From Betaproteobacteria bacterium (GTDB taxonomy: Bacteria > Pseudomonadota > Gammaproteobacteria > Burkholderiales > Burkholderiaceae_C), in contig RFYV01000023.1 of assembly GCA_009921265.1 (NCBI GenBank), positions 1 to 44,340 on the forward strand: DNA of 44,340 bases. The letters are read 5' to 3'. Of the stretch, positions 1,056-21,917 are shown piece after piece. A program made the position numbers and the translations under genes. Positions within the stretch are counted from its first letter, which is position 1, and each line of letters starts with the position of its first letter. The notes under the pieces were generated by a model that did not search any database, was not told the DNA's origin, and saw nothing but the letters and a program-made list of their open reading frames with translations.

Positions 1056-1967
1056 ATGCAAGAAAAATCATCCATTGATGCAATGCATCTTTTAAAGTTA
1101 CGCGAAGACCTGCTTGACTCCATTGATGAAGAATTGGAACTAGCATTTGACGATGGTTTCAATGAAAATAACTCAACAGCATCCAACGAAGAAAAAAAAG
1201 CGCGTGCTAATTATTTTCGTGAACTCCTTCGCCTACAAGGTGAACTTGTAAAGCTTCAAGATTGGGTTGTTGCGACCAAACAAAAGGTCGTTATTCTGTT
1301 TGAAGGTCGAGATGCAGCTGGCAAAGGTGGCGTTATCAAACGCATCACCCAGCGACTTAATCCCCGAGTCTGTAGAGTAACCGCATTACCCGCGCCAAAC
1401 GATCGTGAACGCACGCAATGGTATTTTCAACGCTATGTAACGCATTTACCCGCAGCAGGTGAAATTGTTCTGTTTGACAGAAGCTGGTACAACCGTGCTG
1501 GCGTGGAGCGCGTCATGGGATTTTGTACCGAGGATGAGTACGAAGAGTTTTTTAGAACTGTTCCAGAATTTGAAAAAATGCTTTTGCGCAGTGGTATTGT
1601 TTTATTAAAATATTGGTTCTCAATCACCGATGACGAGCAGCATGCAAGATTTTTAGGTCGTATTCACGACCCATTAAAGCAATGGAAACTCAGCCCAATG
1701 GACTTGGAAAGTCGTCGGCTCTGGGAAGATTACACCCGAGCCAAAGAAACCATGATTGAGCGAACACATATTCCAGAAGCGCCTTGGTGGGTTGTACAAG
1801 CAGTTGACAAAAAGCGCGCGCGCCTCAACTGCATTGATCATTTACTCAGTCAATTTAATTATCACGAAACTGAACACCCAGAAGTTGCATTACCTGCTCG
1901 CGTTCGAAATCCTGACTATCTGCGACATCCAGTACCCAGCGAAATGATCGTGCCAGAAAAATACTAA
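1056..1967 (+). CDS. ppk2: Polyphosphate kinase 2 family protein
   Basis: 303 residues. PPK2 enzymes move phosphate between polyphosphate and nucleotides, usually making ATP or GTP from the diphosphates. The P-loop GRDAAGKGG lies at residues 84-92, the Walker-B-like segment DRSWYNRAG at 141-149, and the lid-type R/E-rich region follows, all typical of single-domain PPK2. An acidic, variable N-terminal extension of about 50 residues precedes the core. The start ATG has a good AAGGGA site 7 bases upstream. The gene ends 4 bases from the convergent SDR gene. With ppx and ppk1 later in the window it completes a polyphosphate toolkit. The nucleotide preference cannot be read here. Confidence 0.93.
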   Translation: MQEKSSIDAMHLLKLREDLLDSIDEELELAFDDGFNENNSTASNEEKKARANYFRELLRLQGELVKLQDWVVATKQKVVILFEGRDAAGKGGVIKRITQRLNPRVCRVTALPAPNDRERTQWYFQRYVTHLPAAGEIVLFDRSWYNRAGVERVMGFCTEDEYEEFFRTVPEFEKMLLRSGIVLLKYWFSITDDEQHARFLGRIHDPLKQWKLSPMDLESRRLWEDYTRAKETMIERTHIPEAPWWVVQAVDKKRARLNCIDHLLSQFNYHETEHPEVALPARVRNPDYLRHPVPSEMIVPEKY

Positions 1968-1971
1968 AGAT

Positions 1972-3689: not shown

Positions 3690-3752
3690 ACCCCTAGGTA
3701 ACCCCAGCCTTGATTACATGAACGGGGGTAGTAATATAGACGAAATTTGCAT

Positions 3753-3786
3753 ATGTCACAAATATGAAACGAAGAGTAACGATAAT
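3753..3786 (+). promoter_or_regulatory. Candidate Pho-box promoter of sixA-like gene
   Basis: ATGTCAC (3753-3759) and ATGAAAC (3764-3770) are 11 bases apart. After exactly 10 bases comes GATAAT (3781-3786), five of six matches to TATAAT. Seven bases on is the ATG of the SixA-like gene, so the transcript may be leaderless. Confidence 0.5.
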
Positions 3787-3792
3787 GGATTA

Positions 3793-4254
3793 ATGGATCT
3801 CATACTGTGGCGCCACGCCGAAGCCAATGAAATTGAAGATGACGAGGACGATTTAAGTCGCGTTTTAACTGTGCGCGGAGAAAAACAAGCTCAAAGAATG
3901 TCTGTTTGGTTAGAACGACAGCTTCCCGATACCGTCAAAATATGGTCAAGCCCTGCAGTTCGTGCAGAACAAACCGTTTTAGCTTTAGGAAGAAAATACA
4001 AAGTCAGGGATGAATTATCTCCTTGCGGTAATGTCACCCATTTACTTGAATTGGCCCAATGGCCTTATAACAAAAATTCTGTTTTGATCGTTACTCACCA
4101 ACCTTTGATTAGCCAAGTGATATCCAAAATTTTAGGGATCAAGGAAGAGAAAATTTCTATTAAAAAATGTAGCGTCTGGTGGCTCAGAGCTCGAGCTAAA
4201 GATGACAAAATAGAAACAAGCCTAGTGAATATTCAATCGCCAGACATGCTTTAA
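3793..4254 (+). CDS. sixA: SixA-like phosphohistidine phosphatase
   Basis: 153 residues from the ATG at 3793. The histidine-phosphatase RHAEA motif is at residues 7-11 (His8 as phosphate acceptor) and the second catalytic His is in VTHQP (His102). SixA proteins of about 160 residues remove phosphate from phosphohistidines, for example on phosphotransfer domains. An in-frame ATG at 3718 exists, but family members begin at MDLILWRHA, and the extra 25 residues would cover the promoter. No Shine-Dalgarno site precedes 3793, which agrees with a leaderless start. The target protein in this organism is unknown. Confidence 0.85.
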   Translation: MDLILWRHAEANEIEDDEDDLSRVLTVRGEKQAQRMSVWLERQLPDTVKIWSSPAVRAEQTVLALGRKYKVRDELSPCGNVTHLLELAQWPYNKNSVLIVTHQPLISQVISKILGIKEEKISIKKCSVWWLRARAKDDKIETSLVNIQSPDML

Positions 4255-4278
4255 CACTTAATTGTTTATCTATACCCA

Positions 4279-4334
4279 TATTCATCAAATATTCACCGTT
4301 GTGTAACAACACGTTCACATTGAATCGTTAAGTT
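4279..4334 (+). promoter_or_regulatory. Four-unit Pho box before phytase-like gene
   Basis: TATTCAT (4279), TATTCAC (4290), GTGTAAC (4301) and CGTTCAC (4312) recur with exact 11-base spacing, the pattern bound by PhoB. TAAGTT (4329-4334) lies 10 bases after the last unit as a weak -10. The leader then runs to the ATG at 4384. Confidence 0.6.
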
Positions 4335-4383
4335 AATTCAATCAGCATCGCTGATCAGCAATTCATTCAACAAGGAAGTACAA

Positions 4384-5733
4384 ATGAAGGTCATTAAAAG
4401 TTTATTTCTCATCATGGGTGCAATTGGCGCCGTGCAGTCCTCTAATGCGCAAACAGCCATGCCTGCAACTTTGGCGGGCCATGTCATCATTCCAGCGGCC
4501 ACCTATATACCCGCGCCAAAGGACGCATCGCCAGATTTGCAACTCAGTGGCAAGTACACAACGGGTAAACGCGTTGAAACGCCTCAAACAATCGAAGGCT
4601 TATCTGCAGGACGCCCCACGGGTATTAGCGTTCCATTCAAAGGGCAACCCATTCAAGGTCACTCAGGTATCAAAAAAATGCCCGATGGCACCTATTGGGT
4701 ATTGACAGATAACGGAGCGGGATCGAAAGCAAACTCGCCAGACTTTATGCTGTATTTGAATCAGTACAAGATTGACTTCAAAAGCGGACAAATTAACAGG
4801 CTTCAAACTGTTTTTTTACACGACCCTGATCGCAAAGTGCCATTTCGCATCGTTCACGAAGGTACGACTAAGCGCTATCTAACAGGATCAGATTTCGATA
4901 CCGAGTCATTCCAATTTGCAGGCGGCTATTTATGGATCGGTGATGAATTTGGTCCCTACCTCATCAAAGCAGATCTCAAAGGAAAAGTAATCGCTGTGTT
5001 TGAAACTCTGGTTGATGGTCAACTCATCAAATCGCCAGATCACTACACAGTCACAACTCCTGGTGCGCCCACTGATTTGGTGAAGTTTCAACTGCGCCGC
5101 TCAAAGGGCTATGAAGGCATGGCTTCATCCAAAGATGGCAGCAAGTTGTACGCGTTGCTTGAAGGCGCGTTGTGGGACGAAAACACCAAAAGCTATGAAA
5201 TGGTCGATGGAAAGCAGTACCTGCGCATTGTTGAGTTTGACGTCAAAATGGACAAGTGGACCGGCCGTCATTGGAAATATGTACTCGATGCCAACCACCA
5301 CGCTATTGGTGATTTCAATATGATCGATACAACAAGCGGATTAATCATTGAGCGAGATAACGGCGAAGGAACTGCGGACAAAGCCTGTCCTGAAGGTCAA
5401 AAGAGAGCCGACTGCTTTCATGACATTGCAAAGTACAAACGCGTCTATAAGATTGAACTCAGCGAAAGCAATGTGGGCGGACCCGTCAAAAAAGTAGCTT
5501 ACATCGATCTAATGAACATCGCTGACCCCAAGCGCGTAGCTAAAAAACCTTTGAACAACGGGGTTCTCACATTTCCATTCTTCACCATTGAAAATGTCGA
5601 TGTGTATGACGAAAAGCACATTGTTGTTGGGAACGACAATAATCTTCCATTCTCATCGAGCAGAGAGCCTAACAAAGCCGATGACAATGAATTTATTCTT
5701 TTAGAAGTCACCGAATTTTTAAACGCCAAATAA
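4384..5733 (+). CDS. Exported esterase-like phytase-family protein
   Basis: 449 residues with a Sec signal peptide (MKVIKSLFLIMG..., cleavage probably after SNA near residue 22). The mature part fits the 'esterase-like activity of phytase' family: repeated beta-strand blades with motifs such as GHSGIKK, WVLTDNGAG, FDTESF, LWIGDEFGPYL and GYEGMA. Such proteins are thought to form a propeller and have been linked to phytate or organic phosphate hydrolysis, although activity differs between members. A good AAGGAAG ribosome site precedes the ATG. A strong terminator follows. Its Pho-box promoter fits a role in scavenging phosphate in the periplasm or outside the cell. Confidence 0.85.
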   Translation: MKVIKSLFLIMGAIGAVQSSNAQTAMPATLAGHVIIPAATYIPAPKDASPDLQLSGKYTTGKRVETPQTIEGLSAGRPTGISVPFKGQPIQGHSGIKKMPDGTYWVLTDNGAGSKANSPDFMLYLNQYKIDFKSGQINRLQTVFLHDPDRKVPFRIVHEGTTKRYLTGSDFDTESFQFAGGYLWIGDEFGPYLIKADLKGKVIAVFETLVDGQLIKSPDHYTVTTPGAPTDLVKFQLRRSKGYEGMASSKDGSKLYALLEGALWDENTKSYEMVDGKQYLRIVEFDVKMDKWTGRHWKYVLDANHHAIGDFNMIDTTSGLIIERDNGEGTADKACPEGQKRADCFHDIAKYKRVYKIELSESNVGGPVKKVAYIDLMNIADPKRVAKKPLNNGVLTFPFFTIENVDVYDEKHIVVGNDNNLPFSSSREPNKADDNEFILLEVTEFLNAK

Positions 5734-5742
5734 GTGCTTGCA

Positions 5743-5832: not shown

Positions 5833-5861
5833 CTCCATACAACATTAAAAATGGAGTGTAT

Positions 5862-6704
5862 ATGGCAATCGTGGCAGAAGCAGTTGAGCATCAATATATT
5901 GAACTATCTTCTCCGATTAGACACCACCATCCGCTACACATAAGGCCAACAATTGGTGGCATACAAAAGCCAGCTCCTTTATCACTTGACGTCACATGGG
6001 CCAAGCATCTTGATGAAGTCAGACAAGCACAACGCTTGCGTTACGATGTGTTTTCTCAAGAAATGGGCGCACGCATTCAATCCTCAATTGCAAAGCACGA
6101 CATCGATATCTTCGATAATTTTTGTGAACACTTAATCGTTAGGGATTCCAACACGCAAGAAGTTGTTGGTACTTATCGCTTGTTGACGCCCTCTCAGGCT
6201 AATCGCATTGGAAGCACCTACACCGACACAGAATTTGATTTGATTCGACTGAGAAATATTCGATCACGCATGGTTGAATTAGGCCGCAGCTGTGTTCATC
6301 CCAACTATCGCCAAGGCAGCGTCATCATGGCGTTGTGGGGCGCACTTGCTGAATTTATGGTTAGAAACCAATTGGACATCATGATTGGGTGTGCAAGTAT
6401 TCCGATGATTCACCAAGGTATTTTTAATGGTGACTATGCAACAAGTATCTGGAACAAACTCAAACAAAAATATTTAGCACCGATTGATTTACAAGTAACA
6501 CCACGTTATGCGCTGCCATTGGATCGTTTTCAATCCAATCTAAGTATTGACCCGCCTCCTCTGATTAAGGGTTACTTACGTATTGGCGCCAAACTACTCG
6601 GCCCACCCGCATGGGATCCAGATTTCAATACAGCCGATCTTCCCATGATGATGCGATTGGATGACATGCCATCTCGTTACAGAAAACACTTTTTAGGTGA
6701 ATAA
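5862..6704 (+). CDS. olsB: OlsB-like ornithine N-acyltransferase
   Basis: 280 residues from the ATG at 5862, chosen because GGAG lies 5 bases upstream; an in-frame GTG at 5856 is less likely. The acyltransferase core is recognisable: LRYDVFSQEMGAR, a variable loop DIFDNFCEHLIV, VGTYRLLTP, then VELGRSCVHPNYRQGSVIMALWGAL and the IGCASIP segment, as in OlsB/hemolysin-type GNAT proteins. OlsB attaches a 3-hydroxyacyl chain to ornithine, the first step to phosphorus-free ornithine lipids. The next gene starts in its stop codon (TAATG). The Pho box upstream fits replacement of phospholipids under phosphate limitation. Confidence 0.85.
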   Translation: MAIVAEAVEHQYIELSSPIRHHHPLHIRPTIGGIQKPAPLSLDVTWAKHLDEVRQAQRLRYDVFSQEMGARIQSSIAKHDIDIFDNFCEHLIVRDSNTQEVVGTYRLLTPSQANRIGSTYTDTEFDLIRLRNIRSRMVELGRSCVHPNYRQGSVIMALWGALAEFMVRNQLDIMIGCASIPMIHQGIFNGDYATSIWNKLKQKYLAPIDLQVTPRYALPLDRFQSNLSIDPPPLIKGYLRIGAKLLGPPAWDPDFNTADLPMMMRLDDMPSRYRKHFLGE

Positions 6705-7579
6705 TGCATTACAGAGCCATATTTATATCTGATCTGCATTTAGGAACGCCTGGATGCCAAGCCGACGCCTTGCTCGATTTTTTAAAAGAAAACTCAAGCG
6801 ACAACCTTTACTTAATTGGCGACATCATTGACGGATGGCAGTTAAGACGAAAATGGTATTGGCCGCAGGCGCACAACGATGTGGTTCAAAAATTACTTAA
6901 GCGCGCACGCAAAGGAACAAAGGTCATATTTGTTCCAGGTAATCATGACGAGTTTGCGCGTGAATTTGTCGATCATCATTTTGGCGGCATAGAAGTACTT
7001 GATCACGCTTCACACACATTGCTCGACGGTAGAAAGCTTTGGTTGGTTCATGGCGACTATTTTGATGCGGTAGTTCAATATGCCAAATGGCTGGCGATTG
7101 TCGGCGACTACCTGTATGAATTCACCCTGCGGATGAATCGTCACTTCAATCGCGTTCGTGCGCGGTTGGGGATGCGCTATTGGTCCTTATCGGCCTATTT
7201 AAAGAATAAAGTCAAAAAAGCGCTTAACTTTATTACTGACTTTGAAAATGCAGTCGCGCATGAGGCTAAAAAACGTGGCTTTGACGGCGTGGTCTGCGGT
7301 CATATTCATAAAGCCGAAATGCGTGAGATTGAAGGTATTTTGTATTGTAACGATGGCGATTGGGTTGAAAGCCGATCTGCACTGGTGGAACACGTCGACG
7401 GCAAACTGGAATTGATCTATTGGGATCAGGATCTAGAAGACATCCCGCTGCCCTTGCCTATGCCAGCCTTTGATGTTGCCATGACTCAGGCTAAAGTTGA
7501 AAGCCTAGCGCTGCTAGCTCCCATTATGGCGAAGCAGGCAAAGATCGATCAAGATCGAGTTGTATCCGCAGTTGAATAA
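6704..7579 (+). CDS. plcP: PlcP-like phospholipase C (calcineurin-like phosphoesterase)
   Basis: 291 residues with the metallophosphoesterase series DLHLG (10-14), GDIIDG (39-44), GNHDE (79-83), HGD (116-118) and GHIH (199-202). The surrounding blocks, GWQLRRKWYWPQ and SLSAYLKNKVKKA and DGVVCGHIHKAE, match the PlcP branch, which is often mis-called UDP-2,3-diacylglucosamine diphosphatase (LpxH). PlcP degrades phosphatidylethanolamine and phosphatidylglycerol to diacylglycerol during phosphate starvation, which glycosyltransferases then decorate. It is coupled to olsB by a one-base overlap and shares its Pho promoter. Its 3' end overlaps the convergent acyltransferase gene by 56 bases. LpxH cannot be fully excluded by motif alone. 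Confidence 0.82.
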   Translation: MHYRAIFISDLHLGTPGCQADALLDFLKENSSDNLYLIGDIIDGWQLRRKWYWPQAHNDVVQKLLKRARKGTKVIFVPGNHDEFAREFVDHHFGGIEVLDHASHTLLDGRKLWLVHGDYFDAVVQYAKWLAIVGDYLYEFTLRMNRHFNRVRARLGMRYWSLSAYLKNKVKKALNFITDFENAVAHEAKKRGFDGVVCGHIHKAEMREIEGILYCNDGDWVESRSALVEHVDGKLELIYWDQDLEDIPLPLPMPAFDVAMTQAKVESLALLAPIMAKQAKIDQDRVVSAVE

Positions 7580-8294
7580 CTTGGGCTAAGGTTTTTCTAT
7601 TTAGGCCGACAGAATGCATGTGTTCTAGCTTATGCAATTTGGCAATTACAGCGTTTAATTTTAAAATATCGATTAACGAGTTAATAAAAGTCTGATCTGC
7701 AAAATAAAGAATATCTTTGCTGCGTTCTTTTGAATGTTGATCTATATATTGAAGTGCTAACGGAAATACTTTTGAATCACTTGCAATGGCTGACGTAAAA
7801 AAATTAGATTTAAATTGGATGGGTTGCGTTCCATCGGTACTCGTGCCTTCAGGAAACACCGCCACACTCATTCCCTGACGAAGATATTGTGAGGCCCTTT
7901 CAATCGAATTGAGCATCGATTTTTTTGACTCTCGGTTCACAAAAATAACACCACAGGTGTGTGCAATTTTACCAAATACGGGCCACTCCAATACTTCACT
8001 CTTGGATATAAAAATACTTGGCCTGTATGCATGAATCACCAATATATCAACCCAAGATAGATGGTTTGCAACGTACAAACCAGGACCTATTGAATCTATC
8101 GATTGATCGTTGGGTTGAATGTTTAAATGGATCGATAAATGATGAAGCAAGGTTTTTGCCCATCGACTCGATTGCTCCAATCGATACTCTATGGGTTTGC
8201 GATGCAAATAAAATCTGCATCGCCCATAAAACCACACCACCGAACAACCGACACGTATTGCTTTATAAACAACACGAATGTCGGAGAGTTTCAT
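7524..8294 (-). CDS. 1-acyl-glycerol-3-phosphate acyltransferase family, OlsA/PlsC-like
   Basis: 256 residues with the acyltransferase signature HLSWVD (H78-x4-D83) and FPEGTS at 148-153. A hydrophobic helix near residues 10-30 anchors it to the membrane. The family covers PlsC (phosphatidic acid synthesis) and OlsA, which adds the second acyl chain to lyso-ornithine lipid. Placement across from olsB and downstream of phoA favours OlsA, but this is context. Its ATG overlaps the phoA stop by 4 bases, so it is the third gene of the exported protein-phoA operon and probably Pho-controlled. Confidence 0.82.
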   Translation of the reverse strand: MKLSDIRVVYKAIRVGCSVVWFYGRCRFYLHRKPIEYRLEQSSRWAKTLLHHLSIHLNIQPNDQSIDSIGPGLYVANHLSWVDILVIHAYRPSIFISKSEVLEWPVFGKIAHTCGVIFVNRESKKSMLNSIERASQYLRQGMSVAVFPEGTSTDGTQPIQFKSNFFTSAIASDSKVFPLALQYIDQHSKERSKDILYFADQTFINSLIDILKLNAVIAKLHKLEHMHSVGLNRKTLAQVIQLRIQLDLDRSLPASP

Positions 8295-10342
8295 TTATTC
8301 TTAGAAAAGGTCTTGGGCGGCAATACGCCCTTGATCACCGCTTGTCCAATAGCAAAGAAGATATCGGTGTTATCTTGAACACCCGTAAATGCCCAAGCTC
8401 CTGGTCCCATCGCTGATAGAGGAATGTCAGATGCAGTATGCACCCCGCTGTTACCAGGGACCTGTCCTGTCACAGTAAATCCACCTTGCGCATCACGCGC
8501 CATTGGATCGACTGGATAAGCCGATAAGGGTTGAGATTTAATAAGAGGTTGCTGGCTGTCTTGCAATGGCAAGGGGTTGGTTCTCCAATCTTCGGTGCGG
8601 TCTGAATTTCCACCGTACCCCACTAACAAACGGTAGTCGATATCTGTACTCTGTGGATATCCATCCGCACCGATTTTGTATTTAGGAAAACCTGCCTTTT
8701 CATAAACACCAACGACTTGATCGCGCACGTTGGAAACGCCACCTGCTTTAATAAGATCTTGAAGTTTGGCATCGCTCACAGTGGATGCCCCGATCAAAGC
8801 GACGCCCGAACACTCGTGGTCGGCGGTCACGATGACCAAAGTTTCGCCATTCTTTTTTGCAAACTCTTGGACCACAGCAATGGCCCTATCAAATTCGATG
8901 GTATCTAAAATCCATCTTTCGGTATCCATGTTGTGCGCTTGTTTATCAATCGATGCGCCTTCAACCATCAACACAAATCCTTTTTTATTTTTTTCTAAAA
9001 CAGCCAGTGCCTTTTGTGTCATCTCATCGAGCATGGGTTGATCGGGAAAACCAAAATCATCAACAACGCGACCCTTGATACCTTTTGCAATGTTTCTTCT
9101 GCCGTCAATCTTGTCTAATGCCACGTTCATGTTTGAGTATGAAAAAAGACCCAGCAGCTGATTGGTCTTGCTGATATCAATGGCGTCTAAAGAGGTTTTG
9201 TCGGATACATATTTAAAGCCTGACGCTTGAAAGTCACCGATTAAATCACGTTCCTTATCAAGCTTTCCTGCAGATGCGCCCCACTTTTTTACAATTTCAG
9301 AGGTATGTAATTCGGAATCGGAAAAAGCATAGTCATTGCTGTCGCTTCGTGCAGACCCAGGCGTTGAGGCTGGCAAAAACCATTTGCGACCACCGCCCAT
9401 TAAAACGGAGAGACCGGTGAGTTTTCTGTCATCAAAAAATTGATCCACAATGCCAGTACCTGCACCGCGATTGCTTGTATGAATCGCGTTGGCCGCAGGT
9501 GTCGCGTCAAAAACATCGGATGTTGTCACCAAGCCTAAAGCTTTACCTTGTGTGCGATGCAAGTATTCGCTTAAATACTCAATTCGTGGATTGTCAAATG
9601 CGTTCGTTGTGTCGTCAGGGAAAACACCCTCTTCGTTGTTATTTCCTTTGTTACCCGACACATATGCCGCCATACCTGGCGCTGAGTCAGTAATCAAGGA
9701 ATTAAGGGATGAGGTTTTGACTTGACCAGATATGGGGAATTGATCCATAGCCAAGGGCTTAATGGCATGCCCTTGTGCGTAGCCACCCGACACAATACGA
9801 GCAGCTGTGCGCTGTGCCGCGCCCATACCATCACCTAGCATGATGATGATGTTCTTTACCTTTTGGCCGCCTGCATGTAAGACCACCACTTCAAATTGAC
9901 CTTTAGCCGTCACTTGTTGACCATCCGTTTGCTGAGCTCTCACTTCAAAAGTGTGCACGCCCGCTCTGGACATTGAAAAAGAGCGAATCGTTGCAATGCT
10001 CGCGTTTTTAGGAGTTAATGCGGTACATCCTGTTTGACAACTTTTTAATGCAACTGTATGTTCAATCCGTATGCCGTTGACATAAAACGAGGCTTGTGTA
10101 ATGGATTGCGCTGCATCATCGGGCCTAATCGTCGCTTGCAAATCAAATCGTTGGTCAGGCAAGAACCTCGCAACGATGGGGGCTGACTGGCCCGTAGAAA
10201 ATAATTCACTCGGTGGTGTTAAACGTGAAACAGTGGGTGCTGCCGATGCAACGCCCAAAATACCAAGTCCACATGTAAGAAATAAAGATTTAAGGAGCGA
10301 TTGTTGGTAAGAGATAGGTTTTTTCATGGTCGTTTTAAACAT
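8291..10342 (-). CDS. phoA: Alkaline phosphatase with N-terminal extension
   Basis: 683 residues. A Sec signal peptide (about residues 1-35, ending ASA) is followed by some 125 residues of beta-rich sequence, then the alkaline phosphatase domain: IMLGDGMG (metal Asp171), ITDSAPG with the nucleophile Ser220, EGASIDKQAH and TADHECSG for zinc binding. It is longer than the typical E. coli-type PhoA of about 470 residues because of the N-terminal domain, which contains two Cys (102, 106). It hydrolyses phosphomonoesters outside the cytoplasm. An internal ATG five codons later gives a cleaner signal peptide and could be the true start. It lies directly after the exported-protein gene and is coupled to the acyltransferase gene. 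Confidence 0.92.
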   Translation of the reverse strand: MFKTTMKKPISYQQSLLKSLFLTCGLGILGVASAAPTVSRLTPPSELFSTGQSAPIVARFLPDQRFDLQATIRPDDAAQSITQASFYVNGIRIEHTVALKSCQTGCTALTPKNASIATIRSFSMSRAGVHTFEVRAQQTDGQQVTAKGQFEVVVLHAGGQKVKNIIIMLGDGMGAAQRTAARIVSGGYAQGHAIKPLAMDQFPISGQVKTSSLNSLITDSAPGMAAYVSGNKGNNNEEGVFPDDTTNAFDNPRIEYLSEYLHRTQGKALGLVTTSDVFDATPAANAIHTSNRGAGTGIVDQFFDDRKLTGLSVLMGGGRKWFLPASTPGSARSDSNDYAFSDSELHTSEIVKKWGASAGKLDKERDLIGDFQASGFKYVSDKTSLDAIDISKTNQLLGLFSYSNMNVALDKIDGRRNIAKGIKGRVVDDFGFPDQPMLDEMTQKALAVLEKNKKGFVLMVEGASIDKQAHNMDTERWILDTIEFDRAIAVVQEFAKKNGETLVIVTADHECSGVALIGASTVSDAKLQDLIKAGGVSNVRDQVVGVYEKAGFPKYKIGADGYPQSTDIDYRLLVGYGGNSDRTEDWRTNPLPLQDSQQPLIKSQPLSAYPVDPMARDAQGGFTVTGQVPGNSGVHTASDIPLSAMGPGAWAFTGVQDNTDIFFAIGQAVIKGVLPPKTFSKNK

Positions 10343-10840: not shown

Positions 10841-10846
10841 CTTGAT

Positions 10847-10918
10847 AGATTAACCACTTAATGTGACACTAATTTGACATCGGAATTTCACGAAAGTGTC
10901 ATTGATATTTGTTCTAGT
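10847..10918. promoter_or_regulatory. Divergent double Pho-box region
   Basis: On the plus strand GTGACAC (10863), TTGACAT (10874), ATTTCAC (10885) and GTGTCAT (10896) repeat every 11 bases, with TCTAGT (10913-10918) 10 bases later as -10 for the lplT-like gene. On the minus strand the first two units read GTGTCAC and ATGTCAA, with TAATCT (10852-10847) 10 bases on as -10 for the exported protein-phoA operon. One array may therefore serve both directions. Confidence 0.6.
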
Positions 10919-13579: not shown

Positions 13580-13635
13580 AGTATTCATTGACTGTGTGAA
13601 AGTGATGTGAACAATTTGTGTCATTTTTTTGTCAG
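13580..13635 (-). promoter_or_regulatory. Four-unit Pho box of ugd
   Basis: Reading the minus strand, CTGACAA, ATGACAC, TGTTCAC and CTTTCAC start every 11 bases (13635 to 13596). Exactly 10 bases after the last unit is AATACT (13585-13580), a good -10. The leader to the ATG at 13533 is about 40 bases. Confidence 0.65.
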
Positions 13636-13656
13636 TCATGCGCGAATTATTTATCT

Positions 13657-14541: not shown

Positions 14542-14553
14542 TAGTCATACAAA
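14520..14553 (+). promoter_or_regulatory. Candidate Pho box of the aminotransferase gene
   Basis: CTGTCAT (14520, a perfect heptamer), TCTTCAT (14531) and TAGTCAT (14542) are 11 bases apart. TACAAA (14548-14553) lies 10 bases after the second unit and leaves the AAGGAG site inside the transcript. The repeats overlap Met/Asp codons at the psd start, so coincidence is possible. Confidence 0.45.
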
Positions 14554-14577
14554 TGGGGCTTAAGGAGAACTTGTTAT

Positions 14578-16242
14578 ATGTTTGAAACCATTTCTGCATC
14601 GTCTTTTGCGATTTTGAGTCTTTTGATGGCTACGTTGCTGATCCTTCGGATCAAGCAAAGGATTGAGTTGTCGCTCGCCAAACAACCAGGCTTGAGCGGA
14701 CACTTGCGATGGGCTAAAAGAATAGCGGGTTGGTTGCCTGGATATTCGTATCCGCACAATACGTGGTTCAGTGTTGATGATGCGCCTGCTGACGTTTCTA
14801 CAAAACGACAAAGAGCGCTTCATGATTTGGGTGAACGACTTCGCAACAAAAGTCCATTGACATTGGCACAAACACAAGCTGTAAAGCCGATGATTTCTGA
14901 TTTGCAATTTATCAGCCAATACAGAATCCCTTTTCAATTTCGCGAAGTGCTCACTCAACAAGTTCAAATGGGAAGCTTCTGGGCAAGCAGCGAAGGCGTT
15001 CATCTGATTGACCTGGATGGCAACAAGTACATCGACGTGACGGGTTCTTATGGCGTTAATTTGATGGGTCAAGATTTTTACAAAGCCTGTATGCAAGAAG
15101 GCATCGATTTGGTTAAAAATTTGGGGCCTGTGCTGGGCTCTTACCACCCTTGCGTTTTGGAAAATGTTCAAGCGCTTTGTAAAATTTCTAACAAGGACGA
15201 AGTTTCGTTTCACATGTCCGGCACTGAAGCGGTGATGCAAGCAGTGAGGCTCGCTCGCTACCATACGGGTAAGAAAAAATTGGTCAGGTTTGCAGGCGCT
15301 TATCACGGTTGGTGGGATGATGTGCAACCAGGGCCTGGGAATCCCATGCCCCCATCCGACCATACACTGACTCTGCGCGAAATGCACGAGTCCACTTTGC
15401 GTGTATTGAATCATCGAAGTGATATTGCTTGTGTATTGATCAACCCCTTGCAAGGCATGCATCCCAATCAAGCAGCACCCACTGACTCCACATTGGTCGA
15501 TGCAAAACGTCACGCACACTTTGACAGAATAGCTTACACCCAATGGCTTGAACAACTCAGAGAAGTATGCACAAGAAAAAACATTGCATTGATTTTTGAT
15601 GAAGTCTTCATGGGCTTTCGATTGGCCAGGGGCGGTGCTCAAGCCTATTTCAATATCGATGCCGATTTGGTTACCTACGGAAAAACATTGGGCGGCGGCT
15701 TGGCCGTTGGCGTAATTTGCGGAAAATCTAAATGGATGAAACGCTTTGATGACAGCAAGCCTGGACAAATCTGTTTTGCAAGAGGTACCTTCAATGCCAA
15801 CCCTTATGTGATGGGCAGCATGAATGTGTTTTTGAAGCAAATCTATAAACCTCAGATCAGCGCTCTTTACGAAACTCTGGATGCGACTTGGGAGCGTCGA
15901 CTCAAACAAATGAACCAACGATTGAGAGATGAAAAATTGCCGCTCCAAGTAACGGGTATGTCGACTGTATGGACTATATTGTATGAAGTGCCCAGTCGTT
16001 ACAACTGGATGTTTCAATATTATTTGCGCGACCAAGGTATTGCACTGAGTTGGGTGGGTACGGGTCGCATGATCTTTAGTTTGAATTTCTCGGATCAAGA
16101 TTTTGAACAATTCATGAATCAATTTGTTCTTGCGGGCCACCAAATGGCTAACGATCAATGGTGGTGGACACCGCAAGGTCAAACTAATCAAAAAATCAGA
16201 AAACTCATATTTCGTGAAGTTTTGAAAGAAAAATTCAGTTGA
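14578..16242 (+). CDS. Membrane-anchored class-III PLP aminotransferase
   Basis: 554 residues. An N-terminal membrane helix (about 8-25) and roughly 100 further residues precede a class-III aminotransferase core related to glutamate-1-semialdehyde aminomutase: SGTEAVM (214-220), AYHGWWDD (241-248), the cofactor-binding Asp in IFDEVFMG (341) and the PLP lysine K369 in TYGKTLGGG. The family's usual length is about 430, so the anchor is unusual. A clear AAGGAG ribosome site is present. It is divergent from psd and convergent, 2 bases away, with the Mpo1-like gene. I infer an amino-lipid role; the substrate is unknown. HemL itself is unlikely because of the extension. Confidence 0.85.
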   Translation: MFETISASSFAILSLLMATLLILRIKQRIELSLAKQPGLSGHLRWAKRIAGWLPGYSYPHNTWFSVDDAPADVSTKRQRALHDLGERLRNKSPLTLAQTQAVKPMISDLQFISQYRIPFQFREVLTQQVQMGSFWASSEGVHLIDLDGNKYIDVTGSYGVNLMGQDFYKACMQEGIDLVKNLGPVLGSYHPCVLENVQALCKISNKDEVSFHMSGTEAVMQAVRLARYHTGKKKLVRFAGAYHGWWDDVQPGPGNPMPPSDHTLTLREMHESTLRVLNHRSDIACVLINPLQGMHPNQAAPTDSTLVDAKRHAHFDRIAYTQWLEQLREVCTRKNIALIFDEVFMGFRLARGGAQAYFNIDADLVTYGKTLGGGLAVGVICGKSKWMKRFDDSKPGQICFARGTFNANPYVMGSMNVFLKQIYKPQISALYETLDATWERRLKQMNQRLRDEKLPLQVTGMSTVWTILYEVPSRYNWMFQYYLRDQGIALSWVGTGRMIFSLNFSDQDFEQFMNQFVLAGHQMANDQWWWTPQGQTNQKIRKLIFREVLKEKFS

Positions 16243-16244
16243 AT

Positions 16245-16853
16245 TCAATGTGATTTGATATGACCCATGGGGTCAATCAACTCACCACGTAACAAATAGA
16301 CGGGCGACTTGTAATACAACTTGATGTCATGGAATGGATCGGTCATGATCTTGAATCCCCAGGCCAAGCCCGCTTGTAAATTTTCTTTGACCCACAATTG
16401 CAAAACACGAAAGACGAGTCCCGCAAGACCTAAAAATAACCATGCCATCCCCGTCATGCGAATGGGTGTGTCCTCATAAGCTTCGGGAACCGCCCAAGTT
16501 AAATACTGTGGCATAAAGTAAGCAACGACAGGAATCAAACCGCAAATGGTTAACAACACAATTTTGCGTTGTAAGTTGTAGCCTACTTTGATTTCTTCTT
16601 TGTATTCATGTGTAGCTTGATTGACTTCATCAAAACCTTTGGGCTCAAAAAAGAAATGACCAATTTGGCGAGTTGTCATCGATACCAACCAAGCGACAAG
16701 ACCTGCAATCACGGGGTCAATAAAAAGATAAGCGTAGGAGACTAAAAACGAAATTGCACTGATTAAATGCAAGGATTGGTTGATGCGACTGTGATGGTAA
16801 TAGCGGTGATCGTCCCAGCGTTGTGTTCTGAGCGTTTCAAAAAAATCTTGCAT
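16245..16853 (-). CDS. Mpo1/DUF962-like integral membrane protein
   Basis: 202 residues from the ATG at 16853, chosen because AGGAG lies 5 bases upstream; an upstream in-frame ATG is less likely. Four helices are expected (near residues 30-48, 50-70, 103-120 and 137-160). The HHSRINQSLHLI segment and RQIGHFFFE resemble the conserved histidine blocks of the DUF962/Mpo1 family; yeast Mpo1 is an iron-dependent dioxygenase in 2-hydroxy fatty acid alpha-oxidation. Homology is by motif only. It has its own Pho-box promoter and ends 2 bases from the aminotransferase gene. Confidence 0.6.
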   Translation of the reverse strand: MQDFFETLRTQRWDDHRYYHHSRINQSLHLISAISFLVSYAYLFIDPVIAGLVAWLVSMTTRQIGHFFFEPKGFDEVNQATHEYKEEIKVGYNLQRKIVLLTICGLIPVVAYFMPQYLTWAVPEAYEDTPIRMTGMAWLFLGLAGLVFRVLQLWVKENLQAGLAWGFKIMTDPFHDIKLYYKSPVYLLRGELIDPMGHIKSH

Positions 16854-16887
16854 ATAATCTCCTAATGATTGAGTGAATAACCTAATC

Positions 16888-16921
16888 ACTATGCCCCAAT
16901 TACATGAAATTTTGATGACAC
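16888..16921 (-). promoter_or_regulatory. Pho-box promoter of Mpo1-like gene
   Basis: On the minus strand GTGTCAT (16921-16915) and ATTTCAT (16910-16904) are 11 bases apart, and exactly 10 bases later CATAGT (16893-16888) forms a -10 like that of E. coli phoA (TATAGT). The AGGAG site lies in the leader. Confidence 0.65.
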
Positions 16922-16922
16922 A

Positions 16923-16978
16923 CCATCATCAAATATTCACAAAACAGTCATCAAACTGTTGCAATTGAGTGGCAAATT
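16923..16978 (+). promoter_or_regulatory. Pho-box promoter of glycosyltransferase gene
   Basis: CCATCAT (16923), TATTCAC (16934), CAGTCAT (16945) and CTGTTGC (16956) recur every 11 bases with A-rich spacers. CAAATT (16973-16978) lies 10 bases after the last. Transcription would begin at or next to the ATG at 16986. Confidence 0.6.
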
Positions 16979-16985
16979 AGAGGGT

Positions 16986-18167
16986 ATGAACTTCCACTCT
17001 TCTATACATGTTCAAAAAATAGCTGGCGAGCATGCCACTTTGCGAATCGCAGTGGTTACAGAGACTTACCCCCCCGATATCAATGGTGTTGCACACACCC
17101 TATCCAAAATTGTTGCAGGTCTCAAATCAAACGACCATGTGGTGTGGCTTGTGAGACCCCGTCAAGGTACAGGCGATTTACAAATATCTGAAGACAAATT
17201 TCAAGAAGTTTTTGTCAAAGGTCTGCCCATCCCCTTTTATAAACAATTGAGAATGGGTTTGCCCGCCAAAAAAGAATTGACACGCTTATGGACGCAACAT
17301 CGTCCCGATTTGGTGCATATTGCCACCGAAGGACCCTTGGGATGGTCGGCACTCAAAGTGGCGCAAAAACTCAAATTACCCATCAGTACAGATTTCAGAA
17401 CCAATTTTCATGCATACAGCCAACACTACGGTATTGGATGGCTCAGAGGCGCCATCATGGCTTACATGAAAAAATTTCACAACGCAGCGCATAGCACCAT
17501 GGTTCCAACACTTGCTCTCGAGCAAGAGCTGTCCTCCCTCGGGTTTGAACGCTTGCACGTTGTTCCACGTGGTGTTGATACCGATCTCTTCTCGCCCGAT
17601 AGACGGTCCGATGCATTGAGAGCATCATGGGGTGCCACACAGTCCACTCAAGTGCTGATTTGTGTTTCGCGCTTAGCGCCCGAAAAAAATATGCATTTAG
17701 TCGTTAAGGCCTATCAAGCGTTAAACGCAAAAAACACAGATACAAAACTTGTCATCGTTGGCGATGGACCTATGCTCAATACTCTCAAAAATTTAGCACC
17801 TGACGCTATTTTTGCTGGATTTAAAACGGGCGAAGAACTCGCCATGCATTACGCGAGCGGAGATTTATTTGTTTTTGCAAGTCTTTCCGAAACTTTTGGT
17901 AACGTCACACTCGAAGCCATGGCCAGCGGCTTACCCATTGTTGCCTTTCGACACGCGGCAGCAGGAGAAGTCATCACCAGCGGAATTCACGGCATTTTGG
18001 TTGAACCAGGCGACGAGTCGCAATTTATTTCATCGGTTGCAAGCTTAGGTGGCGTCGAGCAACAACGCATATTTATCGCCAAAGAAGCCAGATCCAAAGC
18101 GCTGTCGATGAGTTGGGCTTCCATTCTCAAAAAAACCGAAGATGTTTTTTATGAAGTGGTTAACTAA
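16986..18167 (+). CDS. GT4 glycosyltransferase, probable glycolipid synthase
   Basis: 393 residues from the ATG at 16986. An upstream in-frame TTG at 16959 would lie inside the Pho box and is rejected. The N-terminal acceptor domain starts LRIAVVTETYPPDINGVAHT; the donor domain holds VSRLAPEKNMHLVVKAY, VGDGPM and the family-4 motif SETFGNVTLEAMASGLP. The pattern resembles MgtA/Agt/SqdX-type enzymes that transfer sugars from nucleotide sugars to diacylglycerol. With PlcP making diacylglycerol and Ugd making UDP-glucuronate, it would complete a phosphorus-free glycolipid route. Sugar and acceptor are not proved. Confidence 0.82.
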   Translation: MNFHSSIHVQKIAGEHATLRIAVVTETYPPDINGVAHTLSKIVAGLKSNDHVVWLVRPRQGTGDLQISEDKFQEVFVKGLPIPFYKQLRMGLPAKKELTRLWTQHRPDLVHIATEGPLGWSALKVAQKLKLPISTDFRTNFHAYSQHYGIGWLRGAIMAYMKKFHNAAHSTMVPTLALEQELSSLGFERLHVVPRGVDTDLFSPDRRSDALRASWGATQSTQVLICVSRLAPEKNMHLVVKAYQALNAKNTDTKLVIVGDGPMLNTLKNLAPDAIFAGFKTGEELAMHYASGDLFVFASLSETFGNVTLEAMASGLPIVAFRHAAAGEVITSGIHGILVEPGDESQFISSVASLGGVEQQRIFIAKEARSKALSMSWASILKKTEDVFYEVVN

Positions 18168-18284: not shown

Positions 18285-18314
18285 TGCTTGGGAGGCTTGG
18301 GCATACTTTATAAT
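18285..18314 (+). promoter_or_regulatory. Probable sigma-70 promoter of ppx
   Basis: A perfect TATAAT (18309-18314) with TTGCTT (18285-18290) 18 bases upstream. The predicted start coincides with the ATG at 18321 (six bases between), suggesting a leaderless transcript. No Pho repeat is seen here. Confidence 0.55.
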
Positions 18315-18320
18315 CTTCAG

Positions 18321-19814
18321 ATGCCCATAGACAAACCCCTAGCCGCTATCGATTTAGGTTCCAATAGTTTTCGAATGGAAATCGGCCGATATCAGCACGG
18401 CATTATTCAGCGTATAGAATACATCAAAGAAACAGTTCGCCAAGGTAATGGCTTGGATGAAAACAGAAATCTAACCGAAGAAGCCATGCAACGCGGTTGG
18501 GATTGTTTATCTCGCTTTGGTGAGCGTATCGCAGATTTCAAAACCAAACAGGTACGCGCAGTAGCCACACAGACCCTGCGCGAGGCACGCAACCGTGATG
18601 TCTTTTTAAAACGTGCCACCCAAACTCTCGGATTCCCCATTGAAGTGATCTCTGGTAAAGAAGAGGCTCGTCTTATTTACTTGGGTGTCTCTCAGCTCCT
18701 TCCACAATCCGACGAAAAGAGAATGGTCGTAGATATCGGTGGAAGATCAACTGAAATTATCGTTGGTAGAAATAAAGAATCCAAGCAAATGGAGTCCTAC
18801 CGCGTGGGAAGCGTCGCATGGAGCATTAAATATTTTCCCAATGGTATTTTTAGTGCCGAATCATTCAAAAAATCAGAGGTTGCCGCAAAAGCTATTTTGG
18901 ATGAAGCGGTTGCCAAGTACCCGCCTCACAAGTGGGATGTCGTTTACGGATCGTCTGGAACCATTGGCGCGGTTGCTGACGCACTGGCAATGTCTGGCTA
19001 CTCTGGCACCACCATTACCAAAGAGGGGGTCCTATGGCTCATCAACACCTTGATACGCGCGCAATCGGTTGATCGATTGCGCATCGACGGACTCAAAGAA
19101 GATAGGAAAGCCGTCATTGGTGGCGGCCTATCGGTATTGAGTGCCTTAATGGATTTATTACAAATTGATAGCATGCAAGTTGCAGAAGGTTCACTGCGTC
19201 ATGGCGTTTTGTACGACATGATTGATCGCGATATGGACGACACCGATATTCGTTCATCGACAGTCAAGCGCTTGGCTGTTTCCATGAATACAGACTTGGA
19301 TCAAGGCGCTCGCGTATCTGCCATTGCACAATATTTTTTAGAACAAATTGATCCAGAGAGCGATCAAAAGGATCGGCTTCTTAGAAAAATCAAATGGGCC
19401 GCACAGTTGCACGAAATTGGAACGGCCATTTCACACTCTGACTATCACAAGCACGGCGCCTATATTTTGGACAACACCGACACCACTGGATTTGCCCAAA
19501 CAGAATTGCACCGATTAAGCCTATTGGTTTTGGGTCATCGGGGAAAACTCAAAAAACTAGAACACAATCTTGACGATATCGACTTGGTCAAACAATTGTT
19601 AGCCTTGCGTCTTGCTGTTATTTTGTGCCATGCGCGTAGAGACCCCGACGTCGGCGATTTAAAAATCAACTGGAACAAAAATCAACCCAATAAATTCACA
19701 TTAAAAGCATCTGCCAAGTGGCGAGAAAATTTTCCGCAATCGGCTCATTTGCTTTATATGGAAATGGACGCTTGGCAGCGCACGTCCTATAAGTTTGAAT
19801 TTAAAAACGACTAA
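18321..19814 (+). CDS. ppx: Exopolyphosphatase / GppA family phosphatase
   Basis: 497 residues. The ATG at 18321 begins MPIDKPLAAIDLGSNSF; an upstream TTG would sit in the promoter. The family motifs are DLGSNSF (11-17), TQTLREARN, the phosphate loop DIGGRSTE and YGSSGTIGAV, with an HD-like C-terminal domain (HEIGTAIS, SDYHKHGAYIL). It releases phosphate from polyphosphate ends or converts pppGpp. Its stop directly abuts that of the convergent ppk1, so synthesis and breakdown genes face each other. Confidence 0.93.
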   Translation: MPIDKPLAAIDLGSNSFRMEIGRYQHGIIQRIEYIKETVRQGNGLDENRNLTEEAMQRGWDCLSRFGERIADFKTKQVRAVATQTLREARNRDVFLKRATQTLGFPIEVISGKEEARLIYLGVSQLLPQSDEKRMVVDIGGRSTEIIVGRNKESKQMESYRVGSVAWSIKYFPNGIFSAESFKKSEVAAKAILDEAVAKYPPHKWDVVYGSSGTIGAVADALAMSGYSGTTITKEGVLWLINTLIRAQSVDRLRIDGLKEDRKAVIGGGLSVLSALMDLLQIDSMQVAEGSLRHGVLYDMIDRDMDDTDIRSSTVKRLAVSMNTDLDQGARVSAIAQYFLEQIDPESDQKDRLLRKIKWAAQLHEIGTAISHSDYHKHGAYILDNTDTTGFAQTELHRLSLLVLGHRGKLKKLEHNLDDIDLVKQLLALRLAVILCHARRDPDVGDLKINWNKNQPNKFTLKASAKWRENFPQSAHLLYMEMDAWQRTSYKFEFKND

Positions 19815-21917
19815 TTAACGTCTCGTCGCACTGTATCGCTTCATCAAGGCTTTCTGCGCACTCAATGGTTTTCGATGTGCATCAGCATCAACGGGGTGAT
19901 AAACCAAATCGTCATGCAATTGCCACGCGTCGGCGGTATCGGAAAGATAGGCAACCAAACATTCATCGATTATTTTTTGTTGCAGCTCTGGATTTGTAAT
20001 GGGCCATGCCAATTCAATTCGACGCAACATGTTTCGATTCATCCAATCGGCACTTGACAGATAAAGCTTAACATCTTCATCGATCCTAAAATAAAACACA
20101 CGCGAATGCTCTAAAAACCGACCAATCACAGAGCGAACTTTGATGTTATCGGTGTAGCCAGAAATTCCCGCAGGCAAAATACACGCACCTCTGATGATCA
20201 AATCGATTTGCACGCCTTTTTTGGATGCATCAATCAAGCATTGAGCCAAACGATCATCGGTGAGTGCGTTCATTTTTAAAACGATTCTGCCTTTTTTGCC
20301 TGCTTGCACTGCTTGGGCCACATCTTCAATAAACTCCATCATTTTGCTGTGCAGATGAAAAGGCGCAACAATCAATTGGTTTAATTGATTGAGTTTATTT
20401 TGGCTTGCGAGATGTAAAAAAACATCTTCCATATCGGATGTAATGGCAGCATCACAAGTTAAAAAACTCAAGTCTGTATACAGGCGCGCTGTTCGTGCGT
20501 TGTAATTTCCAGTTGATAAATGCCCATAGCGTCGTAAAATTTTTCCCTCACGACGCGTAATCAAAAGCATCTTGGCGTGGGTTTTAAGTCCAACCACACC
20601 ATAAACAACTTGCGCACCAATGGACTCCAGTTGTTCGGCCCAGTTGATGTTGGCCTCTTCATCAAAGCGCGCTTTGAGCTCCACCACCGCTGTTACTTCT
20701 TTGCCCAGTCGAACCGCTTCGCGCAACAAATCCATTAACTCAGAGTCTGTTCCTGTTCGGTAGACCGTTTGTTTGATGGCTAACACTTTGGGATCGTTAA
20801 CGGCTTCTCTTAACAAATCCAAGACGGCGCCAAAACTCTCAAACGGTTGATGAAAGAGAATATCTTTTTCTTTGATTTGTGAAAAAAGTGAAATGCCAGC
20901 AGTCAGTTGACGCGGATAAGTGGCTTGATAGGGCTTGAATAAAAGCTCAGGTCTTGCAGCCAAATCAATGACTTGATTGAGTCGTACCAAGTTAACGGGA
21001 CCGTGCACTCTAAAGAGCGCCTGCTCAGGCAGTTCAAATTGATTGTTTAAAAAATCAGCCAAAAAATCTGAACAACCCGACGATACTTCTAAACGAACCG
21101 CATTTCCAAATTGACGGTTCTCTAAACCCCTGCGCAAAGCTGTTCTTAAATTTTTAACGTCTTCTTCGTCAACAGATAAGTCCGAATTGCGCGTGACCCT
21201 GAATTGAGAAAACTGCAATACATCACGATCAGGAAATAAATCCTTGAGATGCGAACGAATAATGCTTGAAAGTGAAACAACCATGGTTTGATTTTGAGAA
21301 ATTTTTTGCGGCAGTTTGATAAAGCGCGGCAATACACGCGGTACTTTCACAATCGCAATTTCATTACTTCTTCCAAACGCATCTTTTCCACCTACGCGAA
21401 CAATAAAATTAAGCGACTTGTTGGCCACTTGTGGAAATGGATGCGCGGGATCTAAACTCACCGGAATCAAAAGTGGTTTAACTTCTTGCTTGAAATAATT
21501 TTCTACCCAATTTTTTTGTGCTTGATTTCTCTCGCCGTGCGAAACAATTCGAATGTTGTTTTTTTCTAATTCAGGAATAAGGTCTTCGTTGTAAACGCGG
21601 TATTGCTCGTTCACCAGTTGATGCGCATGGTGCATTACTCTCTCGTAACTGGCTTGCGAAAAGGCACCTTTGCGATCTGTATTTTTAAAAGCCGTTAAAT
21701 GCAATGACGCTCGCACTTCAAAATACTCATCCATATTGGACGACACAATACACAAATAACGCAAACGCTCTAAAAGCGGTACATCCACTCGCCTTGCCCA
21801 ATCGAGCACACGCACATTGAAAGACAATATACTTTCATCCCTGTCAATCAAGGATCCACTGGATTTGGGCTTGATGAACGCAAGTGGTTCATCAACCATT
21901 GGTTTATGTGTACTCAT
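19815..21917 (-). CDS. ppk1: Polyphosphate kinase 1
   Basis: 700 residues from the ATG at 21917. An upstream ATG at 21959 overlaps the Pho box and is rejected. Family blocks are FNVRVLDWARR, NMDEYFEVRAS, FPQVANKSLNF, and the phospholipase-D-like catalytic region with GLKTHAKMLLI (autophosphorylated His) and HLSTGNYN, then FLEHSRVFYF for the second His. It builds polyphosphate from ATP at the membrane. The near-perfect triple Pho box makes it one of the clearest Pho-regulated genes here. No ribosome site is visible, consistent with a leaderless or very short leader. Confidence 0.95.
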   Translation of the reverse strand: MSTHKPMVDEPLAFIKPKSSGSLIDRDESILSFNVRVLDWARRVDVPLLERLRYLCIVSSNMDEYFEVRASLHLTAFKNTDRKGAFSQASYERVMHHAHQLVNEQYRVYNEDLIPELEKNNIRIVSHGERNQAQKNWVENYFKQEVKPLLIPVSLDPAHPFPQVANKSLNFIVRVGGKDAFGRSNEIAIVKVPRVLPRFIKLPQKISQNQTMVVSLSSIIRSHLKDLFPDRDVLQFSQFRVTRNSDLSVDEEDVKNLRTALRRGLENRQFGNAVRLEVSSGCSDFLADFLNNQFELPEQALFRVHGPVNLVRLNQVIDLAARPELLFKPYQATYPRQLTAGISLFSQIKEKDILFHQPFESFGAVLDLLREAVNDPKVLAIKQTVYRTGTDSELMDLLREAVRLGKEVTAVVELKARFDEEANINWAEQLESIGAQVVYGVVGLKTHAKMLLITRREGKILRRYGHLSTGNYNARTARLYTDLSFLTCDAAITSDMEDVFLHLASQNKLNQLNQLIVAPFHLHSKMMEFIEDVAQAVQAGKKGRIVLKMNALTDDRLAQCLIDASKKGVQIDLIIRGACILPAGISGYTDNIKVRSVIGRFLEHSRVFYFRIDEDVKLYLSSADWMNRNMLRRIELAWPITNPELQQKIIDECLVAYLSDTADAWQLHDDLVYHPVDADAHRKPLSAQKALMKRYSATRR

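Follow-up and report, generated by a model that had tools for sequence, protein, structure and literature searches.

The 44,340-nucleotide stretch analyzed here (the window; contig RFYV01000023.1 of assembly GCA_009921265.1, from a betaproteobacterium assigned to the Burkholderiaceae_C) carries at positions 1056 to 21917 an island of genes for polyphosphate metabolism, phosphate scavenging, and membrane lipid replacement. The island contains more Pho boxes than the genome background and includes a module of four genes (13657-18167) that recurs across Proteobacteria and has a second phosphatidylserine decarboxylase (PSD) of its own, in addition to a class III aminotransferase designated AT3, an Mpo1-like protein, and a GT4 glycosyltransferase. 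We see an even chance that the island is induced by PhoB at phosphate exhaustion and that the core module, to judge from its sequences, makes a phosphorus-free, amine-bearing membrane lipid. Pho-controlled lipid renovation is an already known kind of system, and the PSD-AT3-Mpo1-GT4 module is its new part. No description of the module was found in the portions of papers reached by an open-access literature search.

The conserved PSD-AT3-Mpo1-GT4 module

The source genome comprises 3.56 Mb in 267 contigs and is 95.8% complete; the window has a GC content of 44%. Genes were identified with Pfam and NCBIfam searches of the window proteins, with scores compared with curated cut-offs; the module genes are as follows:

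13657..14541, minus strand, module PSD, a second phosphatidylserine-decarboxylase-like enzyme (PF02666, 187 bits; TIGR00163, above cut-off)
14578..16242, plus strand, AT3, class III aminotransferase (PF00202)
16245..16889, minus strand, Mpo1-like protein (PF06127, 23.2 bits, just below the cut-off of 24)
16959..18167, plus strand, GT4 glycosyltransferase (PF13692, PF00534)

The PSD gene probably starts at the ATG at 14529 or 14526. A 562-residue minus-strand frame lying over AT3 had no family match, unlike AT3 itself on the plus strand.

Recurrence of the module was evaluated in 100 AT3 loci: the best 80 of 580 confirmed loci when genomes were scanned with an AT3 alignment, and 20 loci from other genomes of the phylum. 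The best 80 were mostly labeled as Burkholderiales, Comamonadaceae, or betaproteobacteria and included genomes of the cultured hosts Curvibacter, Limnohabitans, and Roseateles. PSD was present in 97 of the 100 loci and the Mpo1-like gene in 95, though many contigs were cut. Among 398 genomes of the phylum, 25 had AT3, 25 had the Mpo1-like gene, and 24 had both. The genes usually stand in the order PSD (reverse), AT3 (forward), Mpo1-like (reverse), and GT4 (forward), with a divergent PSD/AT3 pair no more than 420 bp apart in 91 loci and an Mpo1/GT4 pair in 61. GT4 is on the opposite side of PSD in some loci (e.g., L101, L105, and L115).

Three layouts were recognized. The first, in beta-type loci, is PSD-AT3-Mpo1-GT4, often with PlcP. 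At least one of eleven phosphorus genes (PlcP, PhoA, PPK1, PPK2, PPX, phytase-like, UshA, PhoU, PstA, PhnD, and PhnI) was in the stretch in 62 of 83 beta-type loci and in 33 of the 41 stretches of at least 20 kb. The second layout (11 loci from another class) combines PSD-AT3-Mpo1 with a PmtA-like methyltransferase in every locus; the best model for the two of these methyltransferases that were scored was NF045882 (134 to 136 bits versus a cut-off of 390), and a second, more distant PmtA copy was found in 11 of 14 layout 2 genomes. We inferred the class of the layout 2 loci and the labels "Bradyrhizobium-like" and "sphingomonad-like" from size, a kinship label, and the one named case, a Sphingomonas parapaucimobilis plasmid (L239). 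In the third layout the genes form one operon, AT3-fused GT4-PSD-Mpo1 (L174, L176, L177, L180, and L181, with L175 cut), in which GT4 has an extra N-terminal part of about 500 residues. Relatives of the fused GT4 occur in Colwellia, Marinobacter, and Paraglaciecola. Layout 3 genomes had no PlcP match at an E value of 1e-30. An OlsF gene adjoins the module in L174 (841 bits, cut-off 620), with an 86% copy in L176.

Several further features of these loci were recorded. In six of them (L081, L112, L118, L127, L130, and L131) PhoU, PstA, or phosphonate-type genes (PhnD and PhnI) lie no more than 12 kb from the AT3 module. On the L239 plasmid (14039-31351), the module has at a distance of roughly 1 to 11 kb a set of genes that, judged by eye, resemble those for ceramide synthesis, annotated as an N-acetyltransferase, desaturase, lptFG, class I/II aminotransferase, acyl carrier protein, and NAD(P)H-binding protein. 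A small cysteine-rich protein (L086:3726-4229; YkgJ-like by eye, no NCBIfam match) is encoded in 16 of the 100 loci. Two gene-like clusters among the loci, c6 and c29, were dropped as antisense frames. The N-terminal part of the fused GT4 was considered as a PHP-type phosphoesterase on the basis of DxHCHD, HPxxFY, and GGSDDH motifs recognized by eye, but Pfam gave no match even at an E value of 10, so this role is not claimed; sequence and fold searches with the whole protein gave matches in the GT4 half only.

The module brings its own PSD. Two PSDs were found in 46 of 52 relatives with AT3 versus 3 of 69 relatives without it, and in more distant genomes at least two PSDs were found in 22 of 24 with AT3 versus 1 of 30 without (these controls were picked from a longer list). 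In a tree of 42 sequences, which was built without six short-type housekeeping copies (the source genome's own among them) and 8 of the 32 wanted module copies, the 24 module PSDs were split from 18 other, long-type PSDs, including that of Escherichia coli, with a support of 1.0 and a stem of 1.73. Thus, the module PSD does not group with the housekeeping PSDs in the long-type tree. Module PSDs retain E. coli D90, H144, H147, and S254, which we take to be the catalytic Asp/His/His and the GST self-cleavage site, and have class-specific changes beside these residues (Y137R, D142M, M148A, and L252H, E. coli numbers). These features suggest that the module PSD may act on an altered substrate. No paper on PSD structure was found in the open-access literature search.

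Pho boxes in the island and in related loci

PhoB control was evaluated with an 18-base Pho-box matrix. The top-scoring pairs of CTGTCAT-type heptamers served as its starting point, and it was refined on the regions preceding pstS in relatives (30 loci, of which 29 were usable and 28 gave a site; none was from the source genome). The source genome's own pstS promoter scored 17.8, and the genome has one PhoB (TIGR02154, 327.8 bits, cut-off 296.2). The background was about 344 kb of the same genome, including the pst region. The initial annotation had proposed such a scan, and sites in the island did exceed the background: window positions 1 to 22000 held 15 sites scoring at least 9, counting palindromic places that may score on both strands, versus 2.6 expected (41 in the 344 kb; Poisson P, 1e-7). 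At a score of at least 12 there were 8 sites versus 0.3 expected (5 in the 344 kb), and when neighboring sites were merged there were 10 clusters versus 2.6 expected (P, 4e-4). The remaining 22 kb of the window was near background, with 3 sites scoring at least 9, 2 of which reached 12. Sites near the island genes were as follows:

901..918, minus strand, upstream of PPK2 (12.8 bits)
1001..1018, plus strand, further site upstream of PPK2 (9.1 bits)
3753..3770, minus strand, SixA/U283 (10.7 bits)
4301..4318, plus strand, upstream of the phytase-like gene (10.4 bits)
10863..10902, sites in two places between U165-PhoA and LplT (13.2 and 14.5 bits)
13607..13635, two sites upstream of Ugd (10.3 and 12.1 bits)
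14520..14537, plus strand, between PSD and AT3 (14.6 bits); the likely start codons of PSD overlap with the first half of this site
16904..16951, two sites between the Mpo1-like gene and GT4 (10.7 and 14.4 bits)
21942..21970, minus strand, tandem sites upstream of PPK1, the strongest in the window (18.2 and 20.0 bits)

The initial annotation had described the PhoB pattern at most transcription units. This description agrees with the matrix scan for PPK2, SixA/U283, the phytase-like gene, U165-PhoA/LplT, Ugd, PSD/AT3, Mpo1/GT4, and PPK1 but not for OlsB-PlcP, which had only a weak site (8.1), or PPX, upstream of which the scan found no site. A site at 19909, inside PPK1, is probably due to chance.

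The gap between PSD and AT3 was scanned with 60-base margins in the 91 loci with a divergent pair within 420 bp. Scores of at least 9 were found in 62 of the 91 gaps (57 of 80 in the beta group and 5 of 11 in the other class) versus 3.4% of shuffles, 1.6% of stretches within genes, and 10 of 254 open reading frame (ORF) starts in the source genome. The corresponding value for 729 unlabeled ORF starts in the same loci was 11%, with some of these being phosphorus genes. The Mpo1/GT4 gap scored at least 9 in 56 of 61 loci versus 5.8% of shuffles, with 39 of the 100 loci having no such pair within 420 bp. All six AT3 upstream regions in layout 3 held a site of 9.3 to 12.8. Before the matrix was applied, heptamer matches had simply been counted in the PSD/AT3 gap, trimmed to where homology ends; the signal was weak, with 9 of 91 loci having at least 11 of 14 matches versus 0.8% of shuffles.

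The predicted surrogate lipid and alternative functions

Phosphorus-short bacteria exchange phospholipids for substitutes, and the known substitute routes (betaine lipids, ornithine and other amino acid lipids, and glycolipids) do not, to our knowledge, explain the gene set of the module. The near-strict co-occurrence of its genes, its own PSD, its own PmtA in one lineage, and Pho boxes in three layouts (57 of 80, 5 of 11, and 6 of 6 loci) together point to an unrecognized surrogate lipid.

In the proposed scheme, the PlcP-like enzyme would cut phospholipids to diacylglycerol, and GT4 could use UDP-glucuronate from Ugd to form glyco- or glucuronosyl-diacylglycerol. The OlsB/OlsA-like pair might make an N-acyl amino acid lipid. 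Within the module, the Mpo1-like protein may oxidize the lipid first, creating a membrane-bound carbonyl to which AT3 would add an amine; the altered PSD would then decarboxylate the resulting amino-acid head, and in one lineage only the PmtA paralogue would N-methylate the amine. Freed phosphate could be stored as polyphosphate via PPK1 and PPK2 and returned via PPX.

Properties of AT3 and the Mpo1-like protein bear on this scheme. AT3 is well conserved (mean column identity of 69% over 13 aligned members), and its closest solved relatives by both sequence and fold are the AMT domain of mycosubtilin synthase (6kfm and 6kfu), followed by glutamate-1-semialdehyde (GSA) aminomutases and beta-transaminases. 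The AMT domain matched with 212 bits and a Foldseek E value of 5e-31, with the region of the pyridoxal phosphate (PLP) lysine aligned. AT3 differs from this domain in being free-standing with an N-terminal helix; in the structure model (mean pLDDT of 77.6), this helix (residues 2 to 34) precedes the enzyme fold and is read as a membrane anchor. Named homologues (among the 120 matches listed) were called either "glutamate-1-semialdehyde 2,1-aminomutase" or a class III-fold enzyme. The aminomutase name is unsupported for AT3 because its scores are below the curated cut-offs (TIGR00713, 167 bits versus 527; NF000818, 179 versus 398). In the Mpo1-like protein, His, Glu, and Asn positions show conservation of 95% or more across 67 sequences.

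The setting of the module is consistent with lipid renovation. PlcP-like matches, named for the family to which we presume the phosphoesterase at 6704..7579 belongs, occurred in 80 of the 121 relatives and, across the phylum, in 149 of 398 genomes; only one other match, distant at 24%, was found in the source genome at an E value of 0.001. PlcP was present in 50 of 52 relatives with AT3, and across the phylum in 18 of 25 genomes with AT3 versus 131 of 373 others. Six of the seven AT3-containing genomes lacking PlcP were examined, and in all six a fused GT4 is beside AT3. In an Agt-type search of the source genome the module GT4 was the sole match (35% to the Agt of a relative). No Agt-type gene lies directly behind plcP, where an OlsA-like gene follows on the other strand.

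The published route to glucosyl- and glucuronosyl-diacylglycerol (PMC8528852; PMC4796936) is consistent with the presence of PlcP, GT4, and Ugd. The PlcP-Agt renovation of Agrobacterium, Pelagibacter, and Pseudomonas aeruginosa (PlcP/Agt1/Agt2) has in common with the island a PlcP-like enzyme, a GT4-type glycosyltransferase, and Pho boxes, and the island's UDP-sugar dehydrogenase could supply UDP-glucuronate. However, the island's Agt match adjoins PSD, AT3, and the Mpo1-like gene instead of plcP. Neighborhoods of plcP with btaBA or other non-phosphorus-lipid genes, as described in PMC4796936, likewise have plcP beside genes for phosphorus-free lipids and Pho boxes, but the island has another gene set together with polyphosphate genes, and no BtaA or BtaB match was found among the window proteins scanned. 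Ornithine lipid synthesis by OlsBA or OlsF is matched in part by the GNAT and PlsC-type genes in the window and by OlsF beside the module in L174, but the window proteins are far below the curated cut-offs.

The housekeeping pathway from phosphatidylserine (PS) to phosphatidylethanolamine (PE) and phosphatidylcholine (PC), with Psd and PmtA, uses the same enzyme families in a row. The module differs in that its copies are paralogues, that many loci have Pho boxes, and that a PLP enzyme and an Mpo1-like protein stand alongside. One rather unlikely elaboration is that the module mirrors the PS-PE-PC pathway without using phosphorus: AT3 and the Mpo1-like protein would build an amino-acid-headed diacylglycerol, a neofunctionalized PSD would decarboxylate it to a phosphorus-free PE analogue, and the PmtA paralogue would form a phosphorus-free PC analogue by methylation, under PhoB control and fed by PlcP. 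If this is true, bacteria of several Proteobacterial lineages would have surrogate lipids of a new class.

Alternatively, the module might be a Pho-controlled spare line for phospholipids, in which PSD makes PE and the PmtA-like enzyme makes PC so that zwitterionic lipid is kept while PlcP consumes the pool, with AT3 and the Mpo1-like protein having a side task. The module PSD retains its catalytic residues and passes the PS_decarb model cut-off, and PmtA-like neighbors are present, as this explanation would predict. However, it would have the cell spend phosphorus during a phosphorus shortage, it does not account for the long separate branch of module PSDs with class-specific changes, and it gives no role to AT3 and the Mpo1-like protein, which occur together in 24 of the 26 genomes that have either. 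We regard it as unlikely.

AT3 could instead be a PLP enzyme of the membrane, either a lyase or a transaminase, that removes the ethanolamine head group of PE, aiding conversion of PE to diacylglycerol and recovery of phosphate, with PSD feeding it from PS. Class III folds do include phosphoethanolamine phospho-lyases, and PSD and AT3 are divergent neighbors with a Pho box between them. The solved relatives closest to AT3 are AMT and GSA aminomutase, with no phospho-lyase in those lists, and PlcP does the same job in most hosts, which makes this function quite improbable. It is similarly doubtful that AT3 aminates a 3-oxo-acyl chain, presumably the substrate of the AMT domain, to give a beta-amino-acyl lipid and not a lipid with a changed head group: the AMT domain is the best structure and sequence match, but no carrier protein or ketosynthase was among the conserved neighbors examined (no carrier protein, polyketide synthase, or nonribosomal peptide synthetase gene was seen in these clusters, whose members were not exhaustively annotated), and PSD and the PmtA-like enzyme indicate a head group.

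Several observations weigh against a Pho-controlled, amine-bearing surrogate lipid. The changed PSD residues are no proof of a new substrate, and a true PS decarboxylase makes PE, a phosphorus-containing lipid. GSA aminomutases are close behind the AMT domain in the fold matches of AT3, and the Pfam match of the Mpo1-like protein is just below its cut-off. Twelve genomes of the genus have PlcP without AT3, and therefore renovation does not need AT3. No phosphorus genes were seen adjoining the module in the Bradyrhizobium-like loci. The PSD/AT3 gap scored below 9 in 29 of 91 loci, including 6 of the 11 loci that are not of the beta type, and the three sphingomonad-like loci had no box (L173, L178, and L179, with scores of -4.5, 3.5, and 5.7). 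Overlap with the PSD start codons may inflate the PSD/AT3 score, for which the ORF-start control corrects only partly, and the PhoB consensus was itself the seed of the matrix.

Island inventory and clustering in relatives

The remaining island genes that were identified are as follows:

1056..1967, plus strand, PPK2 polyphosphate kinase (TIGR03707, 376 bits, cut-off 302)
3718..4254, plus strand, SixA-like histidine phosphatase (PF00300; TIGR00249, 71.0 bits versus a cut-off of 74.5)
4384..5733, plus strand, phytase-like protein (PF13449, 195.7 bits)
5856..6704, plus strand, OlsB-like N-acyltransferase (GNAT, PF13444; NF052554, 165.7 bits, below the cut-off of 350)
6704..7579, plus strand, PlcP-like metallophosphoesterase (PF00149)
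7524..8294, minus strand, OlsA/PlsC-like acyltransferase (PF01553; NF052552, 97.1 bits, below the cut-off of 300)
8291..10342, minus strand, PhoA-like alkaline phosphatase (PF00245, 261.7 bits)
10343..10840, minus strand, U165, protein of unknown function adjoining PhoA (no family match in Pfam or NCBIfam)
10942..12189, plus strand, LplT lysophospholipid transporter (NF008397, 453 bits, cut-off 297)
12058..13533, minus strand, Ugd, UDP-glucose dehydrogenase-like (TIGR03026, 424.6 bits, above cut-off)
18288..19814, plus strand, PPX/GppA exopolyphosphatase (TIGR03706, 319.6 bits, cut-off 307)
19815..21959, minus strand, PPK1 polyphosphate kinase (TIGR03705, 873 bits, cut-off 466); the likely start is the ATG at 21917, with the open frame extending to 21959

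The island additionally holds a short-chain dehydrogenase/reductase (SDR) gene and two genes of unknown function. PhoA was present in all four loci that hold U165. Pfam and NCBIfam bore out the families that the initial annotation had named for the polyphosphate, phosphatase, and lipid genes. Its list was correct as far as it went, having overlooked PSD, AT3, and the Mpo1-like gene (13657-16889), as well as the SixA-like, SDR, and two unknown genes. The OlsB-like and OlsA-like proteins score below the curated ornithine-lipid cut-offs, so that "ornithine lipid" is no more than a likely label. The existence of a Pho-controlled block uniting polyphosphate metabolism, scavenging, and lipid replacement is, as a prediction from sequence, well supported.

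This clustering had been called unusual, which is correct for other families of the order, where it is rare, but not for the genus itself, where it is common. Twenty PlcP loci of the genus (19 genomes) were compared with 20 from other families of the order (19 genomes), chosen from longer lists, in stretches of up to 20 kb. PPK1 or PPK2 was present in 18 genus loci versus 2 loci of other families, OlsB in 15 versus 4, AT3 in 13 versus 2, LplT in 12 versus 0, and Ugd in 10 versus 0. Thus, it is chiefly in this genus that the large block occurs. Of the 20 genus loci, just 1 had PhoA within the block, and just 1 had the phytase-like gene.

Rfam and tRNA scans of the window gave no matches, and neither did a PADLOC defense search with four of the proteins. 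Outside the island, positions 25738-28283 encode a sulfur-transport-like pair (PF04143 and DUF6691), a heavy-metal-associated domain, and a metallo-beta-lactamase-fold protein. Genes for a Crp/FNR-type regulator, cbb3 oxidase subunits, a FixG-like ferredoxin protein, a metal P-type ATPase, and a LysR regulator at 31461-41409 probably form a block for microaerobic respiration. The P-type ATPase gene contains, at 37728-37756, a pair of Pho-box-like sites that overlap each other (13.5 and 12.5 bits).

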